Origin: a virus
Virus record (IMG/VR): IMGVR_UViG_3300017996_000024
Location: 1 to 20,253 of that record
DNA length: 20,253 nt
Reading direction: 5' to 3' (one strand)
This document shows positions 1-10,845 of this stretch, in pieces. The notes under the pieces were generated by a model. That model searched no databases, had not been told where the DNA came from, and was given only the letters and a program-made list of their open reading frames with translations. A program made the translations under genes and the position numbers. Every line of letters starts with the position of its first letter. The first letter of the stretch is position 1.

Positions 1-1011
1 GATGCACATAAGCCAACCGAGATTCATTCAGATACCATGCGGCAGAGCGTTATTGATAACTATAATCAAACAATAAAGCCTCGTCCTCGTGGTCCTAATG
101 TACCTATTCTATTTATTGGTCAACGATTGCATGAGCAAGATTTAGCTGGATATCTATTATCTGGCGCTGATGGCTATGATTGGAAGTCAGTTGTATTAAA
201 AGCTAGGGATGAGGCAGGTAATGCACTATATCCTGAGGTTCATAACCTAGCATTCTTGGACCGTGAAGAATCTTTTAATATTTACACGTTTCATTCTCAA
301 TATCAGCAAGACCCACAGCCCAGTGGTGGCGGTATATTTAAGCCAGAATGGTTACACATACATGATATGGAGCCACCTAACATCGTTAGGACTTTCGTTA
401 CGATTGACTCAGCTGAAACAGACAAATCTTACAATGATGCTACAGTATTCAGCTTCTGGGGCCTGCACAAGATTAAATACGGAATGGTTGATACAGGAGT
501 ATGGGGTCTACATTGGATTGACTGTAGAGAAATACGCGTTGAACCAAAGGACCTGGAGCCACAGTTTTTTTCCTTTTATATGCAATGCATGGGCCATAGT
601 GTGAAACCTGACACAGTATGTATTGAGAAGAAAAGCACAGGCACCACACTGATATCAACGCTTAAACAAGCTCAAGGTTGGCGAATATTAGAAGTTGAGC
701 GTAATAGGCAGAATGGTCGCTCAGTGAGCAAGATTGATAGATTGCTTGAATGCCAGCCTTATTTAGCCTCTCGCCGAATCTCTTTTACCCGTGGTGCTAT
801 GCATCTTGATATGTGTAAAGAACACTTACGCAAGATAACTGCAAATGGCACTCATTCTTTTGATGATATAGCTGACACAATGCAGACAGCTATCCAATGT
901 TCTTTGATAGAAGGTACGCTTCTACCTTATGACAATCAGAAAGAAAATGAAGTCATGGACGCCTTAGCGCAATCCTTTAGCCATACCCAACAAATGCGAG
1001 CAAACCGATGA
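1..1011 (+). CDS. Terminase large subunit, C-terminal part (5' end outside window)
   Basis: This is the DNA-packaging motor subunit that cuts concatemeric phage DNA and drives it into the procapsid. The frame is open from base 1, so the gene is truncated at its 5' end by the window; the ATG at 37 is an internal Met. Residues below are counted from that Met. The segment PILFIGQRLHEQDL (about 23-36) resembles the end of the ATPase domain. SQYQQDP (87-93) and GGGIFKPEW (97-105) form the typical linker before the nuclease. The RNase H-like nuclease carries acidic residues in TIDSAE (D124), CIEKKS (E197) and HSFDDIAD (D276, D280). The Walker motifs must lie upstream. The stop overlaps the portal start as ATGA, which suggests coupled translation. 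The identity is firm from the linker and nuclease motifs and from the adjacent portal gene. Confidence 0.95.
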   Translation, partial: DAHKPTEIHSDTMRQSVIDNYNQTIKPRPRGPNVPILFIGQRLHEQDLAGYLLSGADGYDWKSVVLKARDEAGNALYPEVHNLAFLDREESFNIYTFHSQYQQDPQPSGGGIFKPEWLHIHDMEPPNIVRTFVTIDSAETDKSYNDATVFSFWGLHKIKYGMVDTGVWGLHWIDCREIRVEPKDLEPQFFSFYMQCMGHSVKPDTVCIEKKSTGTTLISTLKQAQGWRILEVERNRQNGRSVSKIDRLLECQPYLASRRISFTRGAMHLDMCKEHLRKITANGTHSFDDIADTMQTAIQCSLIEGTLLPYDNQKENEVMDALAQSFSHTQQMRANR

Positions 1012-3179
1012 CCATCGCTAAAAAACATAGTGAACAACTTAAACGAATCAAAGAAAATGTGAGCAATTCTTACAATTCTCAGCGTCATAATCGTGACAGA
1101 TTCAATGAGTTTCGTAGATTTGTATTTGTTACCACGCTTAATGATAATGATTTGTCATATCTAAAGACTGTGCAAAAACCGCAATTAGAGTTCAATACAT
1201 TAGAGGCTTATGTGAGCCGTTTAGTAGGTGAGTTCACTAAGCATGATATTGGTATTCTAGCTGTAGGCAAAGACAATGTTCCTGTTGATACGCAACAAGT
1301 GAATGCTATTGAAGGTTTGATACGTAACTGTTTCTACGAAGCTGAAGAGCAGAGCATGCAGCGTGAGTTATTTAAGGATTGCTTAACTGGTGGTTATAGT
1401 TGCATGAAAGTGTACACGGATTATGAGCACGATCGCAGCATGCAATTAAAGATATTTAGTCGGCGTGTCTATGACCCAACAATGATAGGGTTTGACCCAT
1501 TGGCTATCGAAGCAGACAAAGGCGATGGCGAATATTTCTTTGAGTTAATACCTATGCGCAAAGAAGTATTCGAGCAAGAACACCCTGAAATTAGCACCAA
1601 GAATATAAAGTTTAAGCGCGCATTAGAAGACATTGATACTTCAAATAACTTTGGTCCATTCAATTGGAGCTATGAGACTAAAACCGAAAAGGTCTTATTA
1701 TTATGTGATTATTACGAGAAAAAGCATAAGAAAGGAACGCTTGTAGAGTTATCTACAGGCGAAATAATGATGAAAGATGAATATAATAAATTCGTCAAAG
1801 ACTGGGAATTAATGGGCATTAATGAACAGGTACCCGCTATTGTCCGTGAACGTCCTACAACTGTGACCACTATTGAGCGCTATAAAGTAATCGAAACCGA
1901 AGTATTAAGCCATGAAAAGACTGAATTATTAAGTTTCCCTTATGTGTTCATTGAAGGTAGCGGTATGATGGTCAAAGATAATAATAGTCATGGAGCACGT
2001 TACTTCACAAGGCCTTATGTCTTTAATGCAATAGGCGCACAGAAATTAAAGAACTTTGCTGGTCAATCTCTTGCAAATGAAATAGAAAATATGGTGATGC
2101 ACAAATTTATAGTCGCCAAAGATTCAATACCGCCCGCTTATAAAGATGCTTATATTAATGTTCAACAAGCTAGTGTGTTGGTATTTAATGCATTTAAAAA
2201 CGATAATCCCGATATTCCATTACCACCACCACGCGAAGTACAAAGACCACCGATACCGCCAGAGTTATTACAAACATTTGATATGTGCGACCAGTTAACA
2301 CAAGTTATATTAGGTAATCATGATAGCTCTATTGCTAAGATGACTGAGCGTCAATCTTCTGGTATTGCTATTCAGACAGCGGTTTCTTTAAGTAATTCGG
2401 CTGCTATGCCTTTTGTTGATAACTTTATATCTGGCATACGCTCATGGGCACATAAGGTTGTAGAGCTTGGGCCGCTGGTGCATGGTGAAGAAGATCGTGT
2501 TCATTCTATGGCTATAACGAATGGTCGCGGCAAGCGTGAGTATGTTGATGTTGGCGCCGGTGGTGTATCGATGGATTACGATCCGAGAAATCTCGACGTT
2601 AAGATTACTGCAGGTGCCAGCTTTAACATGGAACAAGAGAAAGCTCTTCAATATATTAAAGAACTTATGTCTATCTCTCCTGAAATCAATGAGTTTGTTA
2701 ATACTAATGGTTTAGACCTATTGTTAGATAACATCCAAATGCGTGGCATAGATGAATTCAAAGAGCGGGCAGAGCAATTTATGCAGCAAAAAGCGGAAGC
2801 TATGCAACAACAAGCTGCACAAGGTGGACCTCCTAATATTGACCAAATGAAGATTGATAGCGCTAATGCAAAAGTTGCTCAAGATACTGAAATAGCATAT
2901 GCTAAGCTGGCTACAGAAGAGCGTAAAAACCGCACCGAAACCTTATTAGAGCTAGCTAAGATTGGTGTAGACAAAGACCAACAAAGAATAGAAAAAGCTA
3001 AATTATTAGCTGAAATGAATCTAGCTGGCTTTGATGTTGCGCTGAAACTAGATGAATCACAGCAAGCCAAAGTGCGTGATTATATTGAGACTCAGTTTAA
3101 AGCTGGTGCAGCTGAACAAGAGCGCATTGATAGTGAATTTGCACGGACTACAAAGGAGATAGCGAAAAATGAAGATTAG
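1008..3179 (+). CDS. Portal protein (P22 gp1-like)
   Basis: This protein forms the dodecameric ring at one capsid vertex through which DNA enters and leaves and to which the tail attaches. It has 723 residues, close to the P22 portal (725). The N-terminal half has the P22-type pattern: an early YxxxxxPQLEFNTLEAYVSRLVGEF-like helix, then VYTDYEHDRSMQ and a YDPTMIGFDPLA wing segment. A Pro-rich loop (PLPPPREVQRPPIPPEL, around residues 405-421) is followed by the TERQSSGIAIQT crown-side segment. The last 130 residues are a long Ala/Gln/Lys/Glu-rich helix, as expected for the P22 C-terminal barrel. It starts with ATG overlapping the terminase stop (ATGA). Its 3' end overlaps the next small gene by 11 bases. 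The assignment rests on length, position and fold pattern. Confidence 0.93.
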   Translation: MTIAKKHSEQLKRIKENVSNSYNSQRHNRDRFNEFRRFVFVTTLNDNDLSYLKTVQKPQLEFNTLEAYVSRLVGEFTKHDIGILAVGKDNVPVDTQQVNAIEGLIRNCFYEAEEQSMQRELFKDCLTGGYSCMKVYTDYEHDRSMQLKIFSRRVYDPTMIGFDPLAIEADKGDGEYFFELIPMRKEVFEQEHPEISTKNIKFKRALEDIDTSNNFGPFNWSYETKTEKVLLLCDYYEKKHKKGTLVELSTGEIMMKDEYNKFVKDWELMGINEQVPAIVRERPTTVTTIERYKVIETEVLSHEKTELLSFPYVFIEGSGMMVKDNNSHGARYFTRPYVFNAIGAQKLKNFAGQSLANEIENMVMHKFIVAKDSIPPAYKDAYINVQQASVLVFNAFKNDNPDIPLPPPREVQRPPIPPELLQTFDMCDQLTQVILGNHDSSIAKMTERQSSGIAIQTAVSLSNSAAMPFVDNFISGIRSWAHKVVELGPLVHGEEDRVHSMAITNGRGKREYVDVGAGGVSMDYDPRNLDVKITAGASFNMEQEKALQYIKELMSISPEINEFVNTNGLDLLLDNIQMRGIDEFKERAEQFMQQKAEAMQQQAAQGGPPNIDQMKIDSANAKVAQDTEIAYAKLATEERKNRTETLLELAKIGVDKDQQRIEKAKLLAEMNLAGFDVALKLDESQQAKVRDYIETQFKAGAAEQERIDSEFARTTKEIAKNED

Positions 3180-3773: not shown

Positions 3774-4676
3774 ATGGCTTACGTTATCCCAGCTCCTACA
3801 AATTTTTCTACAACTCCTGACGTGTCCTCAACTTATGGCGTGCCTATGGCGTTCATCAGTGGTTTTGAAATGAAGTATGTTAGCAATACAGTATTTACTG
3901 TTAGCTCTGGCAATGCCAATGCTGAAAACAATGGCTCAACTATTCAATATCCATCTGTTAACCCAGGATTGCCAGCAAATATCACTGTTGATATTACTCA
4001 ATTAGCAAGTGCTGGATTAACTCAAGGCAATCAAATATTGCCTGGTACTAGTGGCGTATTCCCTGTTTCTATTGCTAGTTTAGGATTAACCTCATTTACC
4101 ACTTTCGCTGTATATGTTATTAGCGATAGCTCCGGTAGAAATAGTCCGATTGTTGTTGTGGCCACAGGCGATAACTTTATCCCTGGCGTTGCTTCTCCAG
4201 CTAGAGATTATGATTCAATGCGCCGTATTGGTTTTATTACTATTGACGATGCTACCGGCTTTATATTGCCATTCATTCAATCAGGTTCATTTACCGATAG
4301 AGAATATATCTATGCTAATGCTATTCCTGTATTAAGCACTGGTGCTTCACAAACTGTAGCTTTAGTAGATTTGAGCTTAAATGATGCGCCGATTGTTCCA
4401 GGTCCAACTAGTAAAGTTAAGTTACGTTCATTGTGGCTGCCTGCCGCCGCTGCAGATACAAGCTCTTTAACACCTACGGGCTTAACTTCTACTACCTATC
4501 CAGTTGTGTTACAGAATGCTGCTGCATTAGGAGCTCAAGAAAACTTTGAGTTAATCCCTGGTATAGATGGTGCTACGGGTCATGCTGGTATTAATTATAT
4601 CAACAGTGCTGCTGCTGGTGCTTTAAGCTTATGGGTAGTTGGGTTTACTGATAGTTTACGGTTACAAGTGGTTTAA
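3774..4676 (+). CDS. Putative virion structural or decoration protein (300 aa)
   Basis: I do not recognise a named family. The 300-residue product is rich in Ser, Thr, Ala, Gly and Val with short alternating hydrophobic runs, few Cys and no obvious membrane anchor. This is the composition of a beta-structured virion protein such as a capsid decoration or head-fibre protein. Notable stretches are FTTFAVYVISDSSGRNSPIV (about 109-128), DYDSMRRIGFITIDDATGFI and LWVVGFTDSLRLQVV at the C-terminus. ATG 3774 has GAGG seven bases upstream. The gene stands alone between the portal cluster and the reverse-strand cassette, followed by a hairpin at 4698-4721. P22 has no gene here. A structural role is inferred from position and composition only. 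Confidence 0.6.
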   Translation: MAYVIPAPTNFSTTPDVSSTYGVPMAFISGFEMKYVSNTVFTVSSGNANAENNGSTIQYPSVNPGLPANITVDITQLASAGLTQGNQILPGTSGVFPVSIASLGLTSFTTFAVYVISDSSGRNSPIVVVATGDNFIPGVASPARDYDSMRRIGFITIDDATGFILPFIQSGSFTDREYIYANAIPVLSTGASQTVALVDLSLNDAPIVPGPTSKVKLRSLWLPAAAADTSSLTPTGLTSTTYPVVLQNAAALGAQENFELIPGIDGATGHAGINYINSAAAGALSLWVVGFTDSLRLQVV

Positions 4677-4697: not shown

Positions 4698-4721
4698 TCG
4701 CCTTAATAAAAATTAGGGCGA
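4698..4721. terminator. Hairpin between convergent transcription units
   Basis: TCGCCTTAAT (4698-4707) pairs with ATTAGGGCGA (4712-4721) over ten positions with one T-G wobble, around an AAAA loop. On the + strand it is followed by TTTAATATATT, a weak U tract, so it best serves the 300-aa gene upstream. On the - strand the downstream bases are not T-rich, so termination of the cassette there is less certain. Its place between convergent genes supports the call. Confidence 0.6.
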
Positions 4722-4731
4722 TTTAATATAT

Positions 4732-4804
4732 TGCCGCAAGATGGAATCGAACCACCGACGCCCTGCTCTTCAAGCAAGCGCTCTACCAACTGAGCTATTG
4801 CGGC
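4732..4804 (-). tRNA. tRNA-Phe (anticodon GAA), phage-encoded
   Basis: Read on the - strand, all four arms fold in 73 bases. The acceptor GCCGCAA pairs with TTGCGGC, the D stem is GCTC/GAGC with an AGTTGGTA loop, and the anticodon stem is CTTGC/GCAGG with one T-G wobble. The anticodon loop is TTGAAGA, the variable region is five bases (GCGTC), and the T arm is GGTGG/CCATC with loop TTCGATT. The discriminator is A, and CCA is not encoded. The anticodon is GAA, for Phe. Position 37 is G, whereas bacterial tRNA-Phe normally has A37. The first tRNA base is the G of the TAG stop of the preceding gene, so it should be processed from the cassette mRNA. Confidence 0.95.
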
Positions 4805-5232
4805 TAATTGAATATATTACAGAGTTTAGACCAGAAAGATTGAGCTGGCTCAGGTTCTTTCTTTTTAATCTTATCTAATAATGAAGGTAGATTTTTAAAT
4901 TTATTCTCTTTATTTATTCTTCGAACTTCATTAGATAAATATATAACTTTTTCAATCAATGCTTCATCAGGCTTGGGTGCAAAGTAGGACGATTTACCTT
5001 CTGGATTATCCATAAATCCAACGACAAGAAAATCCATATATCCTGTTTCCACAAACTCTTTTCTTATATCACCATCAGAATATTCATCAGTCATCCAGAT
5101 ACCATTCATGTTCATATAGCCGCGATAAATAGCAACTTTACATTCATATATGACAGGCCTCATTCCAATCATCCAATAAGAATGATTGGAAATTATCACA
5201 TTAGCCTCAGTTAAAAATGTCCATTCACTCAT
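4804..5232 (-). CDS. Unknown cassette protein (142 aa)
   Basis: No family is recognised. The N-terminal two thirds alternate hydrophobic and aromatic residues (FLTEANVIISNHSYWMIGMRP, then VAIYRGYMNMNGIW, GYMDFLVVGFMDNP) and look like a compact beta-rich fold. The last 50 residues are a charged helix (EALIEKVIYLSNEVRRINKENK) followed by a Lys/Glu-rich tail ending SFWSKLCNIFN. The ATG at 5232 has AGGAAAT upstream, overlapping the end of the gene before it. The TAG stop shares its last base with tRNA-Phe. It is the last protein gene of the reverse operon. Confidence 0.7.
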   Translation of the reverse strand: MSEWTFLTEANVIISNHSYWMIGMRPVIYECKVAIYRGYMNMNGIWMTDEYSDGDIRKEFVETGYMDFLVVGFMDNPEGKSSYFAPKPDEALIEKVIYLSNEVRRINKENKFKNLPSLLDKIKKKEPEPAQSFWSKLCNIFN

Positions 5233-5233
5233 T

Positions 5234-5443
5234 TTATTTCCTAAATTTATATCTCTCTGGATTGGTAATACCTAATTGGAATAATTCAAATCTTTGTTGC
5301 TCACTTATCTGTGCAGTTTCCACGCAGCCTAGAGAATAATTAATTGAATCTTCTACGCGGAATAATCCATCTTGTCCCTGCTTCCAATAGGTAATAGGAT
5401 GACAAGGCTTGGTTATATCCATATCAAGTATGGGATCATTCAT
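5234..5443 (-). CDS. Unknown cassette protein (69 aa)
   Basis: The function is not recognised. I placed the start at ATG 5443 (MNDPILDMDITK) because it overlaps the preceding stop as ATGA and has GAGAG upstream; a TTG at 5461 would add six residues. The product contains TYWKQGQDGLFRVED, a polar middle, and the ending QLGITNPERYKFRK. It has two Cys residues but no metal-binding pattern. It lies two bases from the next gene and is clearly in the same operon. Confidence 0.65.
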   Translation of the reverse strand: MNDPILDMDITKPCHPITYWKQGQDGLFRVEDSINYSLGCVETAQISEQQRFELFQLGITNPERYKFRK

Positions 5444-5622
5444 TTTATGTTTCTCTCGCAAATAGTTCCTATTATCCAGAGTATCATTATGGTAAGATAT
5501 AATGTCACTGTAAATATACTAGGCGAAAGCACCAGCCACCAAGACCAGGTGATAACTCCACAAAGCTTTAATACTATAAAAACTATTGTTAATAAATGCC
5601 ACATGCTAATACTTATATTCAT
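5440..5622 (-). CDS. Small two-span membrane protein (60 aa)
   Basis: Two hydrophobic segments (about residues 7-30 and 33-53) joined by a short turn make this an inner-membrane hairpin protein with a charged tail, CERNIK. The segment IVFIVLKLCGVITWSWWLVLSP resembles a small phage membrane family that is often annotated as 'transmembrane fragile-X-F protein', a name that carries no function. ATGA overlaps at both ends tie it to its neighbours. A holin-like role is conceivable from topology. No endolysin is adjacent, though, and the family name gives no support, so I leave the function open. Confidence 0.7.
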   Translation of the reverse strand: MNISISMWHLLTIVFIVLKLCGVITWSWWLVLSPSIFTVTLYLTIMILWIIGTICERNIK

Positions 5623-6014
5623 TTATCATTTTCCATTTTTATAAAATCTACTTCTTCTGAATAATAACCATTGCTTTCCCCATACCATCGGATAGTGACA
5701 CATCCCTTAGCGCTAGATATTTTATAAAAAGTCCAAGTACAAGATTCGTCGATATAACCATCATCAGATTTAGGATTTTCATCATTTGATATTTTTTCGG
5801 CATTAATAATGGTAGAGTTGTGCAAATCGTGTAAATCACCGCATATATCCTCAATAGAAACACTTTCGCAGCAATCTTGCGAATGATACATTTTATAATG
5901 CTCACCAGTAGAGCAAATAAAATCTAATTCTCTATTATCATCCTTAATTATGGCAACTATAGTTTTGCCAATAAGCTCAGATATATTTACGTCTTCACCC
6001 TTATACCACGCCAT
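5619..6014 (-). CDS. DUF7448-like conserved phage protein (131 aa)
   Basis: The sequence matches my memory of a protein family found in many phages and some bacteria (DUF7448), whose function is unknown. Diagnostic parts are ELIGKTIVAI near residue 13, YKMYHSQDCCESVSIEDICGD (about 40-60, with a His and a Cys-Cys pair) and the C-terminal TWTFYKISSAKGCVTIRWYG followed by SNGYYSEEVDF. The fold is probably small and beta-rich. The start has AGAGGTG just upstream, and the gene overlaps the end of the nicotinamide phosphoribosyltransferase gene by 14 bases. Its stop overlaps the next start as ATGA. The conserved HSQDCCE motif could bind a metal or a small ligand, but that is inference. Confidence 0.75.
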   Translation of the reverse strand: MAWYKGEDVNISELIGKTIVAIIKDDNRELDFICSTGEHYKMYHSQDCCESVSIEDICGDLHDLHNSTIINAEKISNDENPKSDDGYIDESCTWTFYKISSAKGCVTIRWYGESNGYYSEEVDFIKMENDK

Positions 6015-7335
6015 TTTTCATCACCTCTTTAATATCCCCCAAACTTTGCTCACGTGTTAATTCACCATTTAGAAAAACTGTTTGCAATCTAGGGTCGTTG
6101 AAGCGTCCCGCCTTAGAATTCTTAAATGGATCGCTTTTAGGTCGCTTTTGAACTGGAGTAGCAACACCATCAATAGTAACCTCTGATGCCTTCATAACGA
6201 TATCGTAAGTAGAGCGAGTGCAATTTTGTAATAATCCTGCACCCATGCCCAGCATAATATTAGACATGCATAATCTAGCGTCAGTAATGCTTTTGCAAAT
6301 TGTGCGTAATGAATTTAAATCTTGAATACCATCACCTTGTAAGACTTTAATATTTTGCGGCAATCTAGAGAAAGTATTGCAATGACCATGCATTGTGCAG
6401 CCAAATTGGCGACGCAATAATTTAAGTATTTCCACAGGTTTTGTATGGATATTTCCGCTATCAGGCCTAAATACGGTAGTACCTGGACGCTCAATAATCA
6501 TTTTCCTAAGCTCGATATCTCCCGCAAGATAATGATTGATGGCCTTAATATCATCGTAAGTATCGATAACAATAGAAAGTGTGGCTTCAGGAGGGCAAAC
6601 AGCAAAAAATCTCTTATAAGCATCTAATTCTCTTTCTCGACCATAAGCCATAGTAACAGAATGCTCGCTAGCCATAACGCTAAAGCCTGATACGGGCGCG
6701 TTATAATAATCCATTAGATACTTAACGCCTTCAATATTGTCAGTACCTTCAAAATTTAATAAATGAGAAGCACCGCCAATTGCAGCAGCCTCATGACATG
6801 TCGCACCACGTGCGCCAAAATCTAGAAGATGGAATGGTGAAACTTCACAACCTGATATATCGCAAAACTCTTTAATGATGCGCTTGGCTTCCATGCTTCT
6901 TGATGCCACTGTAATCGGGTACCAGAGCCTATCCAGCATTGTTTCTAGATATTGAGGCAACCACCAGCATTTTGGGTCGGTGTTCTCTATAGTCATTAGA
7001 GGCGTTCCACGTGGCACTATTGATCCCTCTGGGAGAGCGCGAATATGGATTGGTAAACCACCTTTAAAAACATGTTCCCATCCATCATGATTAAAATAAT
7101 CTTGCCCAAATCCTTGATGAAGTAAATCAATAGCCGAAAGTAAATTTTTAGATCCTGACCACTGTGTTCCACATAGGTATTGCTTCAAAAATCCTTGTAA
7201 CCCAAAGAATAAAACATCATGCGTAGAGCTACCACGTGATTCAATATATGAGTGACAATATTCTGTTTTTTCAGGCCACATAAGATGATGCGTATGTTTG
7301 TAATAATCGGTCATTAAGAGAATATTATTATCCAA
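6001..7335 (-). CDS. nadV: Nicotinamide phosphoribosyltransferase (NAMPT/NadV)
   Basis: It makes NMN from nicotinamide and PRPP, the committed step of the short NAD+ salvage route, in the cytoplasm. At 444 residues it is near bacterial and phage NadV length. Matches to human NAMPT include NILLMTDYYK (4-13; dimer-site Asp10 and Tyr12), FEGTD (Asp199), ASEHS (His225, the catalytic His247 equivalent), FRPDSGN (Arg290, Asp292), QGDG (333-336), GMGAGLLQ (363-370) and the Lys/Arg-rich KRPKSDPFKNSKAGR near 397-411. All key residues seem present. The start appears to be TTG 7335, with GGGGA upstream; ATG 7314 is a less likely alternative because it removes the conserved NILL. It overlaps its neighbours at both ends. 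Confidence 0.95.
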   Translation of the reverse strand: MDNNILLMTDYYKHTHHLMWPEKTEYCHSYIESRGSSTHDVLFFGLQGFLKQYLCGTQWSGSKNLLSAIDLLHQGFGQDYFNHDGWEHVFKGGLPIHIRALPEGSIVPRGTPLMTIENTDPKCWWLPQYLETMLDRLWYPITVASRSMEAKRIIKEFCDISGCEVSPFHLLDFGARGATCHEAAAIGGASHLLNFEGTDNIEGVKYLMDYYNAPVSGFSVMASEHSVTMAYGRERELDAYKRFFAVCPPEATLSIVIDTYDDIKAINHYLAGDIELRKMIIERPGTTVFRPDSGNIHTKPVEILKLLRRQFGCTMHGHCNTFSRLPQNIKVLQGDGIQDLNSLRTICKSITDARLCMSNIMLGMGAGLLQNCTRSTYDIVMKASEVTIDGVATPVQKRPKSDPFKNSKAGRFNDPRLQTVFLNGELTREQSLGDIKEVMKNGVV

Positions 7336-7492
7336 GTTCTTTCCCCATAATAAATCCAGCGATGAATGGAATCGCCATGATTGCTACTATTGTTAAAAAT
7401 ACTTCAAATCCACCAGCTTGATTTTCCGCCTGTTTTTCAAAACAAGCATCTAAAGCAAGCTGATATGTAATAAAATCACTATTATTATCCAT
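7328..7492 (-). CDS. Single-span membrane peptide (54 aa)
   Basis: ATG 7492 to TAA 7328 gives a 54-residue product. The N-terminal half is soluble (MDNNSDFITYQL, ACFEKQ), and a hydrophobic span VFLTIVAIMAIPFIAGFIM (about 31-49) precedes a GKELG tail. It overlaps the adenylyltransferase gene by 8 bases and the phosphoribosyltransferase gene by 8 bases. The two overlaps share the same 12-base sequence. The function is unknown. A membrane-tethered partner of the flanking NAD+ enzymes is one possibility. It has no strong ribosome site of its own, so coupling to the upstream gene is likely. Confidence 0.65.
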   Translation of the reverse strand: MDNNSDFITYQLALDACFEKQAENQAGGFEVFLTIVAIMAIPFIAGFIMGKELG

Positions 7493-8423
7493 TTTGTACT
7501 ATCCATTTCTTGAATTTTTGAAATATTGGCCAATGAGAAGGAATGACCATACTGATATATAATCCATCATCGCCCTCCTCAAAATCCATCCATTTAACTT
7601 CCTCAATATCATCACCAGCAGTAATCGGAGTATCGTGAGAAATATCGCAAGTAAATATATGCGTCATAACAACATCAGTCTCATGCTTGTATCGCCAATC
7701 TTGCACTTGTAGGCTGTCGATATATTCCATTTGATCTTCGATAGGAGCAAGATTAGTTTCCTCATAAAGCTCTCTGGTGGCTGCATGAACTAAAGACTCA
7801 TCGACAATATCTACAAATCCGCCAATAAATCGCCATTTTGTTTCATCCTTCTTTCTGCCTACAAGGATTTTATTGTAAGCCGTATCAAAGGGAATAATAT
7901 CTACAGTTGAATAAACTACTGGAAAGCGATTATATGCTGCCCAAATAACGCCATGCCTAAATTCTTTACTGAAACCATGGGAACATGCCAATTCTTTACG
8001 GCGCAGCGTTGCTGATATTTCTTTGCCTAAAATGCTGCATGCGTCATCAATCATCTTACTTTCATATTTACCGGTGTAATCATCAATAAATGATTCTCTT
8101 CCACCTAAAAGTATTGGCGTCATGCCTTCTATTAACTGTTCTTGAATCATCTTGTCTAAATTTTCAGACCAAACATCATCGTCAGAACAGTCATCCAATT
8201 TCCTGAAAATACATCTTTCCTCAGCACCCATCTGATTAACAAACTCAGAGACAGCCCGAATAGTGCCATGTGCTGGCAATGGATTTCTTCTAGTATTTCT
8301 TAACGGAGAAGTTCCAGCCAGAATAAGCACTTTGTCATATTCAAGGGCTGCCTTAATTAGCATCTTATGGCCCATGGTTAATTCATCAACCTGAAATCTT
8401 CCTACTACTACAGCTAATTTCAT
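7485..8423 (-). CDS. Bifunctional NMN adenylyltransferase / Nudix hydrolase (NatV/NadM-like)
   Basis: The N-terminal domain (about 1-145) should join NMN and ATP to give NAD+. The C-terminal Nudix domain probably hydrolyses ADP-ribose or a related nucleotide. In the first domain, GRFQ (8-11) and TMGH (16-19) form the T/HxGH nucleotidyltransferase site, and ISATLRR (136-142) is the second signature. In the second, GGFVDIVDES (201-210) and RELYEE (217-222) form the Nudix box, with one extra residue in the glycine loop relative to Gx5Ex7REUxEE. The same fusion is known in Synechocystis, Francisella and phage KVP40. ATG 8423 forms TAATG with the stop of the regulator gene and has GGAG upstream. 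It supplies the second step after NadV in the same operon. Confidence 0.92.
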   Translation of the reverse strand: MKLAVVVGRFQVDELTMGHKMLIKAALEYDKVLILAGTSPLRNTRRNPLPAHGTIRAVSEFVNQMGAEERCIFRKLDDCSDDDVWSENLDKMIQEQLIEGMTPILLGGRESFIDDYTGKYESKMIDDACSILGKEISATLRRKELACSHGFSKEFRHGVIWAAYNRFPVVYSTVDIIPFDTAYNKILVGRKKDETKWRFIGGFVDIVDESLVHAATRELYEETNLAPIEDQMEYIDSLQVQDWRYKHETDVVMTHIFTCDISHDTPITAGDDIEEVKWMDFEEGDDGLYISMVIPSHWPIFQKFKKWIVQNG

Positions 8424-8641
8424 TACACTTTCTCCTCAAATGATTTCATATATTCAAGCACGTCACGTTTCCTATAAACGTTCCTGTGAAACATTTTAAT
8501 AGGTATCGGTCCTTGACCATGCTTAAGAGTAGATTCACCCATATTCAGCACCAAGGCTACAGTTCGCGTATCAAATAATTGCTCTTCGGGAAGCTCCCAG
8601 AACAATTTAATTAAATATTCATCAGTTTTTTTGATTTTCAT
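8423..8641 (-). CDS. Small winged-helix/AlpA-like DNA-binding protein, likely cassette regulator
   Basis: From ATG 8641 the product has 72 residues (MKIKKTDEYLIKLF). The second half has the pattern of an excisionase/AlpA-type helix-turn-helix: LFDTRTVALVLNMGESTL (helix-turn-helix), then GPIPIKMFHRNVYRKRDVLEYM, where a wing-like Arg/Lys segment is followed by the typical 'Y-R-K-x-D-V' end. It is the first gene of the reverse operon and lies next to the divergent control region, so autoregulation is the simplest reading. The start is uncertain. The frame opens at TTG 8677, a GGAGG at 8669-8673 is too far from ATG 8641 for a standard site, and ATG 8650 is also possible. Confidence 0.65.
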   Translation of the reverse strand: MKIKKTDEYLIKLFWELPEEQLFDTRTVALVLNMGESTLKHGQGPIPIKMFHRNVYRKRDVLEYMKSFEEKV

Positions 8642-8682
8642 ACTACACATCTTACACCAACAAACAAGCCTCCGCAAAGGTA

Positions 8683-8702
8683 TGCATCGATTTGCATCGA
8701 TT
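8683..8702. repeat. Tandem 10-bp direct repeat in divergent control region
   Basis: TGCATCGATT occurs twice head to tail (8683-8692 and 8693-8702), each copy holding the palindrome ATCGAT. It lies just upstream of the regulator gene of the reverse cassette. Paired 10-bp copies place the sites on the same DNA face, as in operators bound by two protein units. An operator for the adjacent helix-turn-helix protein is inferred, not shown. Confidence 0.5.
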
Positions 8703-8721
8703 AATCAATAAATTCAATCGC

Positions 8722-8749
8722 TTGCATAAAATTATTTATGGTCAATAAT
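8722..8749 (+). promoter_or_regulatory. Possible sigma-70-type promoter for the scaffold-coat operon
   Basis: TTGCAT (8722-8727) and AATAAT (8744-8749) are spaced by 16 bases and point toward the scaffold gene. The -10 matches TATAAT at five of six positions, but the -35 matches only the TTG. The region is AT-rich, so a chance match is quite possible. A palindrome at 8758-8769 (CCGATCTATCGG) lies just downstream, where an operator could act. Confidence 0.3.
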
Positions 8750-8757
8750 TTAACTAA

Positions 8758-8769
8758 CCGATCTATCGG
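8758..8769. promoter_or_regulatory. Near-perfect 12-bp palindrome, possible operator
   Basis: CCGAT and ATCGG are exact inverted copies around a two-base centre. The site sits in the intergenic space between the two divergent operons, about 9 bases after the possible -10 box. It could be an operator for the cassette regulator or for a regulator outside the window. Confidence 0.35.
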
Positions 8770-8843
8770 GCAAAATAGACAGCAAACTTGAGCTGAGATC
8801 AAGCGCTTAACCGTGATGGGGCAAAAGTCAAAAAGAGGTTTAT

Positions 8844-9542
8844 ATGTCTGAAAATGCTGTATCAGAATCTATTGTTTCTGGAAGTGCTCCTATTCAACAA
8901 AATGAAGTGCCTACTGAAAAGATGGTTCCTCAATCTGAAGTTGATAGGGTAGCTGGCTCTGTCCGTAAAGAAGGATATGAGAAAGGTAGGCGTGAAGCTT
9001 TAGCTGAACTTAATGCTCAAAAATCTGTTGGAGAACCAATACCTTCGGGTATGACTCCAGAACAAATTGAGCAAGTAAGAAAAATTGCTCTTGAAGCAAC
9101 TTTAAAGCAACAAGAAGAAGCTGGCCATCTAGCTGTAGCCCAAAAGATTATTGGGGAAGTCACAACCAAGCTTAATGCAGGTTACCAGAAGTTTACTGAT
9201 TTTGAACCGGTTGTTAAGACTCTTGAGTTACAAAGAAATCCGTTGTTATTTAAAGCTTTAAACGCTGTCGATAACGCTGACGAAGTAGCTTATGAGATTG
9301 CTAAGAGTTCTAGAAAGCGTTTGTTAATGAAGCAAGCCTCTAGGTCTCCAGATGACTACAATGATTTAGTTGAAGAGATAAGAAATATATCCGAATCAAT
9401 TAAAACTAACAATGTAGCACTTAGCAATGCGAAGCCGGTTAAACAACCATTAGGACAAGTAAAGCCTTCATCTACTGGTGTTGGTAGTGATGGTCCCACA
9501 ACGGTTGCTGAGTTCAAGAAAATGTCTTGGCTTAAAAACTAA
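8844..9542 (+). CDS. Capsid scaffolding protein (P22 gp8-like role)
   Basis: The scaffold directs coat assembly into procapsids and exits before packaging. This 232-residue protein is charged and helical: an acidic low-complexity N-terminus, a KEGYEKGRREALAELNAQ helix (about 42-59), and a central FTDFEPVVKTLELQRNPLLFKALNAVDNADEVAYEIAKS segment. It ends with a Pro/Ser-rich linker (KPVKQPLGQVKPSS) and a short conserved-looking tail, TVAEFKKMSWLKN, of the kind that contacts coat subunits. P22 gp8 is longer (303). ATG 8844 has GAGG at 8834-8837. It begins the forward block after the divergent control region and is followed directly by the coat gene, which is the expected order. Confidence 0.85.
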   Translation: MSENAVSESIVSGSAPIQQNEVPTEKMVPQSEVDRVAGSVRKEGYEKGRREALAELNAQKSVGEPIPSGMTPEQIEQVRKIALEATLKQQEEAGHLAVAQKIIGEVTTKLNAGYQKFTDFEPVVKTLELQRNPLLFKALNAVDNADEVAYEIAKSSRKRLLMKQASRSPDDYNDLVEEIRNISESIKTNNVALSNAKPVKQPLGQVKPSSTGVGSDGPTTVAEFKKMSWLKN

Positions 9543-9549
9543 ATATTGG

Positions 9550-9590
9550 GGAACTCCCTATCAACGAAACAAATAGTTGATTGGAGTTCC
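9550..9590 (+). promoter_or_regulatory. Hairpin burying the coat gene ribosome-binding site
   Basis: GGAACTCC (9550-9557) pairs perfectly with GGAGTTCC (9583-9590). Inside it, ATCAAC (9560-9565) pairs with GTTGAT (9576-9581) around a 10-base loop, leaving a 2x1 internal bulge. The right arm contains GGAG (9583-9586), the Shine-Dalgarno for the coat ATG at 9595. No U tract follows, so it is not a normal terminator. Translational control, or an RNase-cut 5' stabiliser for the coat message, fits better. Confidence 0.65.
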
Positions 9591-9594
9591 TATA

Positions 9595-10845
9595 ATGTCA
9601 CAACCCTCAAATTTTTTGGTCCAGGTCCAGACCTATCAAATGGCCCAACTTGCATTTCTTTTAAACTATGGCTGCTTTATTCATACAGCTAATAAGAAAT
9701 TCAAAGACTTTAATAAATTAACCGCTAACCTTGGCGACACAGTTACTTTTGACTTGCCACCACGTTATGTTACTCAAGCAAGCTTAGTTGCTACATTCCA
9801 AAGTTCTGAACAACGCGTTCAAACATTGGTATGTAATAACCCTGTAAATACTTCTTACGCTTTCACAACCCAACAATTCATCTTCAACGTTGAAGACTAC
9901 ATGAAACGTTTCGGTCGTGCAGCTGTAGCTGAAATTGCAACAAACATCGAAGCTGGCGTAGCTAGATTAGCTGAAACACAACCTTACCGTTTTTATGGTG
10001 ATGGCGTGACTCAAATCTCTAGTGCTGGTCAATTAGCAACAATGTTAGCGTTATATCGCACATATGGCTTTGCTCACAATGAAAACGTAAAAGTTTATTT
10101 GTCAGATTTAGCTGTACCGCAAATCGTTAATAACATGCAAAACCAATTCACCATTGACCGTAACAATGAAAATGCTATGAGCTGGATGGTTGGCGATTGG
10201 ATGGGTGTTGATTATTACCAATCAAACTTGTTACCTGTTCATATAGCTGGTTCTGTTGGTCAAAATGCTCAAACTTTGACTGTTGTTTCAACAAACGATC
10301 CTACTGGTAATAACATCACTCAAATCACTTGTTCAGGCGCTAATGTGAGCGATCCAGGTGCAGTGGTTCAGTATGATAGTGCTCAGTTCAATGATGGCGT
10401 ATCTGGTCAACCTAATATGCGTTATTTGACTTTCGTTGGTCACAAACCATCTGGCGCACCAGTGCAAGTTCAAATTACTGCCAATGCTGGCTCTGACGGC
10501 TCTGGTAACGTGATTTTAAACATCAGTCCTGCACTTTGCTATGTATCAGGCAATCCTTTCCAAAATATTTCTTTCAACGTTGTTGCTGGCATGCAGTTAT
10601 CTATATTGCCTTCTCATCGTTGCGGATTGGTATTTGGTGGCGATGCAATGTTCTTGGCTATGCCTCAATTGAACGATCAACCTCCTTATCCTACAGCGGT
10701 TTCTGTTGATGAAGAAAGCGGCGTAAGTACTCGTTTAACTTACGGTACCGTCTTCACACAAAACCAACAAGGGTTTGTTCATGATGCGTTATGGGGTGCG
10801 ACCTTACCAGCAGAATACTCTCTGAAATTGGCTTTCCCTCTGTAA
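9595..10845 (+). CDS. Major capsid (coat) protein, P22 gp5-like
   Basis: This is the main shell subunit, 416 residues from ATG 9595 (P22 coat is 430). GGAG lies eight bases upstream, so a TTG at 9577 is a worse start. The N-terminal arm (about 1-60) leads to DTVTFDLPPRYV, a coat P-domain-like strand. The helical FNVEDYMKRFGRAAVAEIATNIEAGVARLA segment around 100-130 resembles the HK97-fold spine helix region. A beta-rich stretch, about residues 225-320, holds GQNAQTLTVVS, NPTGNN-like turns and GNVILNISPA, consistent with the inserted I-domain of P22-type coats. The order scaffold, coat, gp4-like, gp10-like supports the call. A hairpin covers the ribosome site, and a strong terminator follows the gene. 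Confidence 0.9.
   Translation: MSQPSNFLVQVQTYQMAQLAFLLNYGCFIHTANKKFKDFNKLTANLGDTVTFDLPPRYVTQASLVATFQSSEQRVQTLVCNNPVNTSYAFTTQQFIFNVEDYMKRFGRAAVAEIATNIEAGVARLAETQPYRFYGDGVTQISSAGQLATMLALYRTYGFAHNENVKVYLSDLAVPQIVNNMQNQFTIDRNNENAMSWMVGDWMGVDYYQSNLLPVHIAGSVGQNAQTLTVVSTNDPTGNNITQITCSGANVSDPGAVVQYDSAQFNDGVSGQPNMRYLTFVGHKPSGAPVQVQITANAGSDGSGNVILNISPALCYVSGNPFQNISFNVVAGMQLSILPSHRCGLVFGGDAMFLAMPQLNDQPPYPTAVSVDEESGVSTRLTYGTVFTQNQQGFVHDALWGATLPAEYSLKLAFPL

Follow-up and report, generated by a model that had tools for sequence, protein, structure and literature searches.

Why should genes for rebuilding NAD+ lie, in reverse orientation, among the head genes of a P22-like phage? The question is raised by virus record IMGVR_UViG_3300017996_000024, a stretch of 20,253 bases (hereafter the window) that is an incomplete fragment of structural genes. 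Eight protein genes and a tRNA gene interrupt the forward structural block on the reverse strand, and a first-pass annotation of the letters had read them as a self-regulated anti-defence operon around NadV, a nicotinamide phosphoribosyltransferase (NAMPT), and NatV, a nicotinamide mononucleotide (NMN) adenylyltransferase (NMNAT) fused to a Nudix domain. We consider it fairly probable that the reverse unit is a self-contained moron-type operon in a variable slot of a P22-like phage of about 40 kb, that two-step nicotinamide salvage is its core, and that its benefit is most likely counter-defence of the NARP2 type.

The NadV and NatV enzymes

The 444-aa product of the gene at 6001-7335 (-) can be assigned securely, from its sequence, as a NAMPT. 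It has both the NAMPT_N (PF18127) and NAPRTase (PF04095) domains, passes the cutoff of the NCBIfam equivalog NF006629 (426 bits; cutoff 405), and finds its closest solved structures among the NAMPTs of the Protein Data Bank (PDB), at 1e-85 to 1e-88. Aligned with these NAMPTs, it retains the substrate Asp of GTD, the catalytic His of EHS, and RPDSG. The 312-aa NatV (7485-8423, -; PF00293) gave a weak result when searched as a single sequence; a profile of seven phage relatives (A3) matches the NMNAT-Nudix protein 2qjt over its full length at 7.4e-42, and matches the solved NMNAT-Nudix protein 2qjo as well. The adenylyltransferase motifs GRFQ, TxGH, RNP and ISATLRR are kept, as is the Nudix REL-EE core, and as judged by these matches NatV is an NMN adenylyltransferase fused to a Nudix hydrolase. 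The identities first proposed for both enzymes are thus borne out by domains, equivalog, active-site residues and the full-length profile match. PADLOC reported a weak Nudix-type match for NatV and a weak PtuB-like match for the regulator discussed below, both of which were discarded.

In the mechanism that we propose, NadV would combine nicotinamide with phosphoribosyl pyrophosphate to give NMN, the adenylyltransferase domain of NatV would convert NMN and ATP to NAD+, and trimming of NAD+ or ADP-ribose is the probable task of the Nudix domain. Nicotinamide freed by TIR or SIR2 NADases would in this way be returned to NAD+, letting the infection finish. A winged-helix regulator probably binds tandem 10-bp repeats at its own promoter, expression of the unit would be separate from that of the late genes, and a tRNA-Phe would be processed out of the transcript's 3' end. 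We favor counter-defence as the purpose because of the analogy with NARP2 (PMC12300627). Published phage work links such enzyme pairs to NAD+-depleting defence (PMC12300627; PMC9503650), and a NARP2 homologue is core in vibrio phages, its protein having been found in virions (PMC12028318).

Recurrence of the pair in other phages

The first-pass annotation proposed looking for nadV and natV alongside the accessory genes in other phages. The enzyme genes themselves do recur together: natV is followed directly by nadV in 12 of 14 other phage loci having enough flank. In the annotated phage collection, five of six records (Tunturi_5, PG07, Colwellia 9A, LR745206 and LR756502) have a NAMPT immediately 3' of the NatV relative, and the same is true of all of L266-L272 from IMG/VR, where the profile scan for NatV used a three-sequence profile (A7). 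One further locus, L273, stops too early for its NAMPT neighbor to be judged and stands outside the count. By its sequence and gene order, then, natV-nadV is a conserved pair and encodes a predicted pathway of the NARP2 (KVP40) type. NadV is reported to be present in every phage that bears NadM (PMC9503650; PMC7139368).

The setting of the pair is less usual. All nine records with a NatV relative in the annotated collection are at least 104,936 bp long, and NatV itself shares about 37-39% identity with the closest relatives it has beyond the sister contigs. NadV has been found in about 2% of small phages, compared with 33% of jumbo phages, and Nudix genes in 0.25% of small phages (PMC9503650). 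The window is itself incomplete, and a small-phage setting is likely because the long contigs among relatives of its backbone are mostly 37-42 kb. A complete nicotinamide-to-NAD+ route is now placed, by prediction, in a small P22-like phage. Single-protein scans of IMG/VR with NadV and with NatV matched only a sister contig, L002, which shows merely that close relatives are rare.

Several observations weigh against the interpretation that we favor. LR756500 and L274, apparently one phage as their match figures are identical, have no adjacent NAMPT match. The Nudix box of NatV is off consensus, with a loop one residue longer and N in place of the last G. A scan of the divergent control region found no sigma-70-like site of 9/12 or better for the reverse unit. 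Enzyme activity and benefit to infection are predictions from the genes, and no NAD+-depleting defence could be tied to a host of the phage.

Gene order and packing

The forward genes run terminase, P22-type portal, a 65-aa open reading frame (ORF), a 50-aa ORF, a 300-aa protein, scaffold, coat, head closure and ejection genes. The P22-like backbone claimed at first holds: phrog_38, 156, 283, 578 and 598 are met in sequence, giving the order terminase, portal, scaffold, coat and head closure. No tail needle or tailspike was identified in the 20-kb fragment. The landmarks are the portal upstream (1008-3179, +; phrog_156, 2.5e-59) and, downstream, the scaffold (8844-9542, +), which has homologues in relatives and precedes the coat gene (9577-10845, +; phrog_283). 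The reverse unit does lie between portal and scaffold, as had been stated, but not directly 3' of the portal, since 1.5 kb of forward genes (those for the 65-, 50- and 300-aa products) intervene. The last of these, the 300-aa gene (3774-4676, +), has homologues in relatives, adjoining the scaffold gene in L103 and lying downstream of the coat gene in several others.

The eight minus-strand ORFs and the tRNA gene are where the first-pass annotation placed them, and its gene list is correct. Read from the scaffold side, the unit opens with a 72- or 84-aa predicted winged-helix regulator (8423-8677, -), followed by natV, a 54-aa ORF with one apparent membrane helix as judged by eye (7328-7492, -), nadV, a DUF7448 gene (5619-6014, -; PF24240, 2.9e-28), a gene for a 60-aa small membrane protein of the phrog_1374 family (5440-5622, -; 9.6e-16), a 69- or 75-aa orphan ORF (5234-5461, -) and a 142-aa orphan ORF (4804-5232, -), and ends with tRNA-Phe (GAA) (4732-4804, -), which was found by ARAGORN and matches RF00005 at 66.7 bits, its CCA not being encoded. 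Start choice leaves two of the lengths alternative: a TTG start gives 84 aa for the regulator and 75 aa for the "69-aa" gene, and the ATGs at 8641 and 5443 give 72 and 69 aa, respectively. The successive junctions are -1, -8, -8, -14, -4, -22, +1 and -1 nt, and because its ORFs overlap or sit 1 nt apart the unit reads as one transcription unit. At the far end, the G of the TAG stop codon of the 142-aa ORF is the first base of the tRNA (position 4804). The 5' cut by RNase P would therefore remove the last base of the stop, so that the tRNA and a complete last message could not both come from one transcript.

The two boundaries described earlier are also present. A hairpin with a 10-pair stem (4698-4721) lies between the convergent genes; its T-run suits the plus strand, for which it is terminator-like, and is poor on the minus strand. 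On the other side, a divergent control region of about 200 bp (8642-8843) separates regulator and scaffold.

The portal-scaffold slot

Relatives of the window were gathered by coat-protein searches, at least 541 of them in IMG/VR, and 104 loci of relatives contain both portal and coat. The portal-to-coat interval in these ranges from 0.9 to 5.7 kb with a median of 2.0 kb, against a terminase-portal median of 27 bp, and at 6.4 kb the interval in the window exceeds all 104. In L103, the closest relative beyond near-identical contigs (coat 71%), the 300-aa homologue is followed by the scaffold gene with no cassette. This empty site agrees with the earlier description of the reverse unit as a discrete insertion among the structural genes.

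Elsewhere the slot holds Ro60/TROVE and HNH genes, a DNA methylase, YoeB-YefM, ribbon-helix-helix and Cas2-like proteins, an OmpA-like barrel and tRNAs. We take the Cas2-like proteins to be VapD-like. Sister contig L002, 99.7% identical over 2.9 kb, differs from the window by 566 bp with two extra ORFs between regulator and natV. These ORFs (L002:2895-3461) encode a basic, cysteine-containing protein of 126 aa and one of 68 aa, and were either inserted there or lost in the window. Given the varied cargo, the empty site in L103 and the extra 566 bp in L002, both slot and cassette are sites of gene gain and loss. As the slot can be read across at least 104 related contigs, it may be mined for further counter-defence and toxin-antitoxin genes.

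Some of this cargo deserves mention in its own right. The Ro60/TROVE-vWA protein occupies the slot at L005:11221-12828 (+), and also in L006 and L007 (PF25045, PF05731, phrog_850); a search for Y-RNA or another Rfam RNA beside the gene in L005 found none. YoeB-YefM and Cas2/VapD-like proteins are found in reverse-strand slots at L219:5088-5590 (-), L232:4435-5009 (-) and L207:8320-8673 (-), with a ribbon-helix-helix gene adjoining the Cas2/VapD-like gene in L232. L241:7693-8877 (-) encodes a 394-aa slot protein with no family match. Away from the slot, an ORF of the terminase region (L007:101-2317) is intein-like by eye, with a Hint-like start and a homing-type segment.

Transfer RNA genes are among the recurring contents of the slot. 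L250, with the near-identical L251 and L253, carries a reverse-strand series of AlpA gene, 110-aa gene and tRNA-Asn that runs convergently toward the last gene on the portal side. Elsewhere in the slots, tRNAs are encoded on the forward strand. The closing tRNA-Phe of the window is recurrent slot content and stands outside the NAD+ pathway. The format of regulator, cargo and tRNA is a lead, not a rule, because the L250 group is its one independent instance.

The regulator and its control region

The first gene of the unit had been called regulator-like, and this view gains from a phrog_2528 match at 6e-9, from a homologue in L193 and from a structural model. The L193 homologue, 38% identical, is a reverse-strand slot gene located upstream of the scaffold gene, and matches HTH_17 at 0.0019, below the cutoff. 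Pfam gives no match for the window protein itself (neither HTH_17 nor Phage_AlpA), nor does tblastn in public phage records. Its model, from a three-sequence alignment, has a predicted local distance difference test score (pLDDT) of 88, and fold comparison places it nearest to excisionases, to BldC and to winged helices of the MerR type; the best match is the GIsul2 excisionase, at a modest Z of 6.3 (1.5 A over 52 residues), followed by RdfS, TorI and BldC. The protein is thus predicted to be an excisionase/AlpA-like winged helix. Excisionase-, HTH_17- or AlpA-like genes lie at the same scaffold-divergent place in L115, L132 and L250, beside other cargo. Since these genes and the L193 homologue hold the regulator's place with other cargo, the regulator belongs with the slot and not with the enzymes.

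Upstream of the regulator start is a tandem 10-bp direct repeat, TGCATCGATT x2 (8683-8702), a candidate operator. The window has only these two exact copies, an arrangement seen in 0 of 2000 shuffles and, in a laxer test, in 1 of 300. The control region of L193 has an 11-12-bp tandem repeat (2 of 300 shuffles) and that of L250 an 11-bp repeat at 21-bp spacing (4 of 300); in the slots of L115, L132 and L108 no control-region repeat rose above chance. With a winged-helix model and a repeat upstream of the gene's own start, self-regulation is plausible.

A broader reading would make this a dedicated slot of a small P22-like clade with Legionella prophage members, sharing a reverse format in which an excisionase/AlpA-like autoregulator sits by the scaffold, a tRNA at the far end, and interchangeable counter-defence or toxin-antitoxin cargo is swapped between both ends, the NAD+ cassette being one load. 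We offer it tentatively, as possible but on the doubtful side.

The accessory genes

All eight genes might act together as a single system of NAD+ counter-defence, in which DUF7448 and the small proteins would be extra sponges or sensors. The tight overlaps suggest co-transcription, in L272 a phrog_1374-like protein is encoded 0.6 kb beyond nadV, and helpers of this kind do exist, as phage RyR-domain proteins feed NAD+ synthesis (PMC13232231). However, DUF7448 lies near nadV or natV in none of 88 loci read with up to 5 kb of flank, nor was there a regulator or membrane-gene match in those neighborhoods. DUF7448 has no match to a solved sponge in sequence, nor a confident one in fold; the regulator goes with the slot; and the operon of sister contig L002 has other genes inserted within it. 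We therefore regard a single coordinated system as highly improbable.

DUF7448 is found in 106 annotated phages and has 194 relatives in IMG/VR, with neighbors that vary everywhere. Its signature, HxQDCCE ... WYGxSNGYYSE, is almost invariant (window 5619-6014; L021-L100). The best relative (L021) is in IMGVR_UViG_3300017991_000084, a 90.8-kb record that also carries a natV-nadV pair (L268), far apart from it in a separate region. The DUF7448 model, at pLDDT 90, has no good match among solved folds; its only resemblances are to other members of DUF7448 and to certain proteins of giant viruses (Mimivirus, Tupanvirus, Hokovirus). We considered a Tad1- or Acb4-like sponge and rejected it, as neither the single sequence nor a profile matched a PDB sequence and no fold match was confident; no significant match to the Thoeris sponges Tad1 and Tad2 appeared among the PDB matches listed. 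That the family is widespread among SPO1-like Bacillus phages is no indication, taken alone, of a sponge role, and no paper turned up by a literature search names DUF7448.

The family of the 60-aa membrane protein, phrog_1374, has members in 154 phage records. It is found near nadV in one of seven IMG/VR loci (L272), and five phrog_1374 neighborhoods that we read contained no nadV. A Pfam match of the 60-aa protein to Tmemb_185A was set aside, being below the cutoff and looking compositional. Informative relatives were found for none of the 54-, 69- and 142-aa ORFs (for the last, 15 IMG/VR pattern matches included no relative), so that tight packing is the one ground for taking them as coding. 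The 54-aa ORF is also kept, at 100%, in the near-identical L002.

The first-pass view of the accessory genes as parts of the NAD+ system is thus not supported, given the 0 of 88 loci for DUF7448, the one of seven for the membrane gene, and a regulator that follows the slot. Recurrence with nadV and natV holds for the enzyme pair itself but largely not for its neighbors, and DUF7448, the membrane protein and the orphan ORFs are probably independent slot cargo.

Clues to the host

Relatives of the coat protein are found in genome contigs of a Legionella maceachernii isolate and a Legionella bin, and less reliably in bins of other phyla; 3 of 140 genomes of the family containing Legionella have one. 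At about 54% identity, these relatives suggest a Legionella-like host for the window phage. The P22-like prophage coat genes in L. maceachernii are at G014:C1:1751599-1752894 and L179.

One coat relative lies within a 3.31-Mb Legionella contig and is therefore part of an integrated prophage. Instead of serving the lytic cycle, the reverse unit could be a prophage moron, expressed in lysogeny from its own promoter to benefit or protect the lysogen through nicotinamide use, superinfection protection or self-protection. Its reverse orientation, its own regulator and control region, and the toxin-antitoxin genes and methylase in the slots of relatives would all fit. No integrase or repressor is visible, as would be the case in a 20-kb structural fragment, and we judge this alternative unlikely.

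Somewhat better placed, though still rather unlikely, is an explanation by metabolic supply, in which the host salvages nicotinamide poorly and the pair increases its NAD+ overall, to serve replication and nucleotide metabolism. A family search for NAMPT_N found it in none of 22 genomes of the genus Legionella (the positive controls Synechococcus and Deinobacterium were detected), some relatives of the phage are Legionella prophages, and a host unable to use nicotinamide would gain from the route regardless of defence. Against this, the lytic cycle is short, the literature ties the pairs to NAD+-depleting defence (PMC12300627; PMC9503650), and Legionella is not established as the host of the window phage. 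Counter-defence of the NARP2 type remains the purpose that we favor.

Comparison with known systems

The regulator resembles AlpA and excisionase proteins in its predicted winged helix, in having excisionases, BldC and MerR as nearest folds, and in the direct repeats nearby. It differs in having no Pfam match, no integrase beside it and modest structural scores. As a whole the unit is like the morons of tailed phages, being a reverse unit amid structural genes with a divergent control region, an empty site in a relative and variable content; in its case a hairpin is present but no promoter was identified, there being no good sigma-70 match, and its content includes a tRNA and an excisionase-like regulator.

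NARP1 (Adps-Namat) shares the goal of rebuilding NAD+, and Namat is a NAMPT homologue. The cassette differs from it in having an NMNAT and in a NadV that matches NAMPT structures best, and family scans matched no cassette ORF to the phosphoribosyl-pyrophosphate-synthetase-like family expected for Adps, an ADP-ribose-5-PP synthetase.

The closest likeness is to the NARP2 pathway of phage NAD+ reconstitution, reportedly described by Osterman et al. in 2024, and to the NadV-NatV salvage pathway of KVP40, said to have been described by Lee et al. in 2017. These share with the cassette a NAMPT and an adjacent NMNAT-Nudix protein, with natV before nadV as in other phages. The cassette, whose activity is predicted, differs in belonging to a small P22-like phage, not a large myovirus or jumbo phage, and in being lodged, together with a regulator of its own and a tRNA, in a slot among structural genes. 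The enzyme pair is thus already known; what is unusual is its small-phage setting and its packaging with a regulator and a tRNA.

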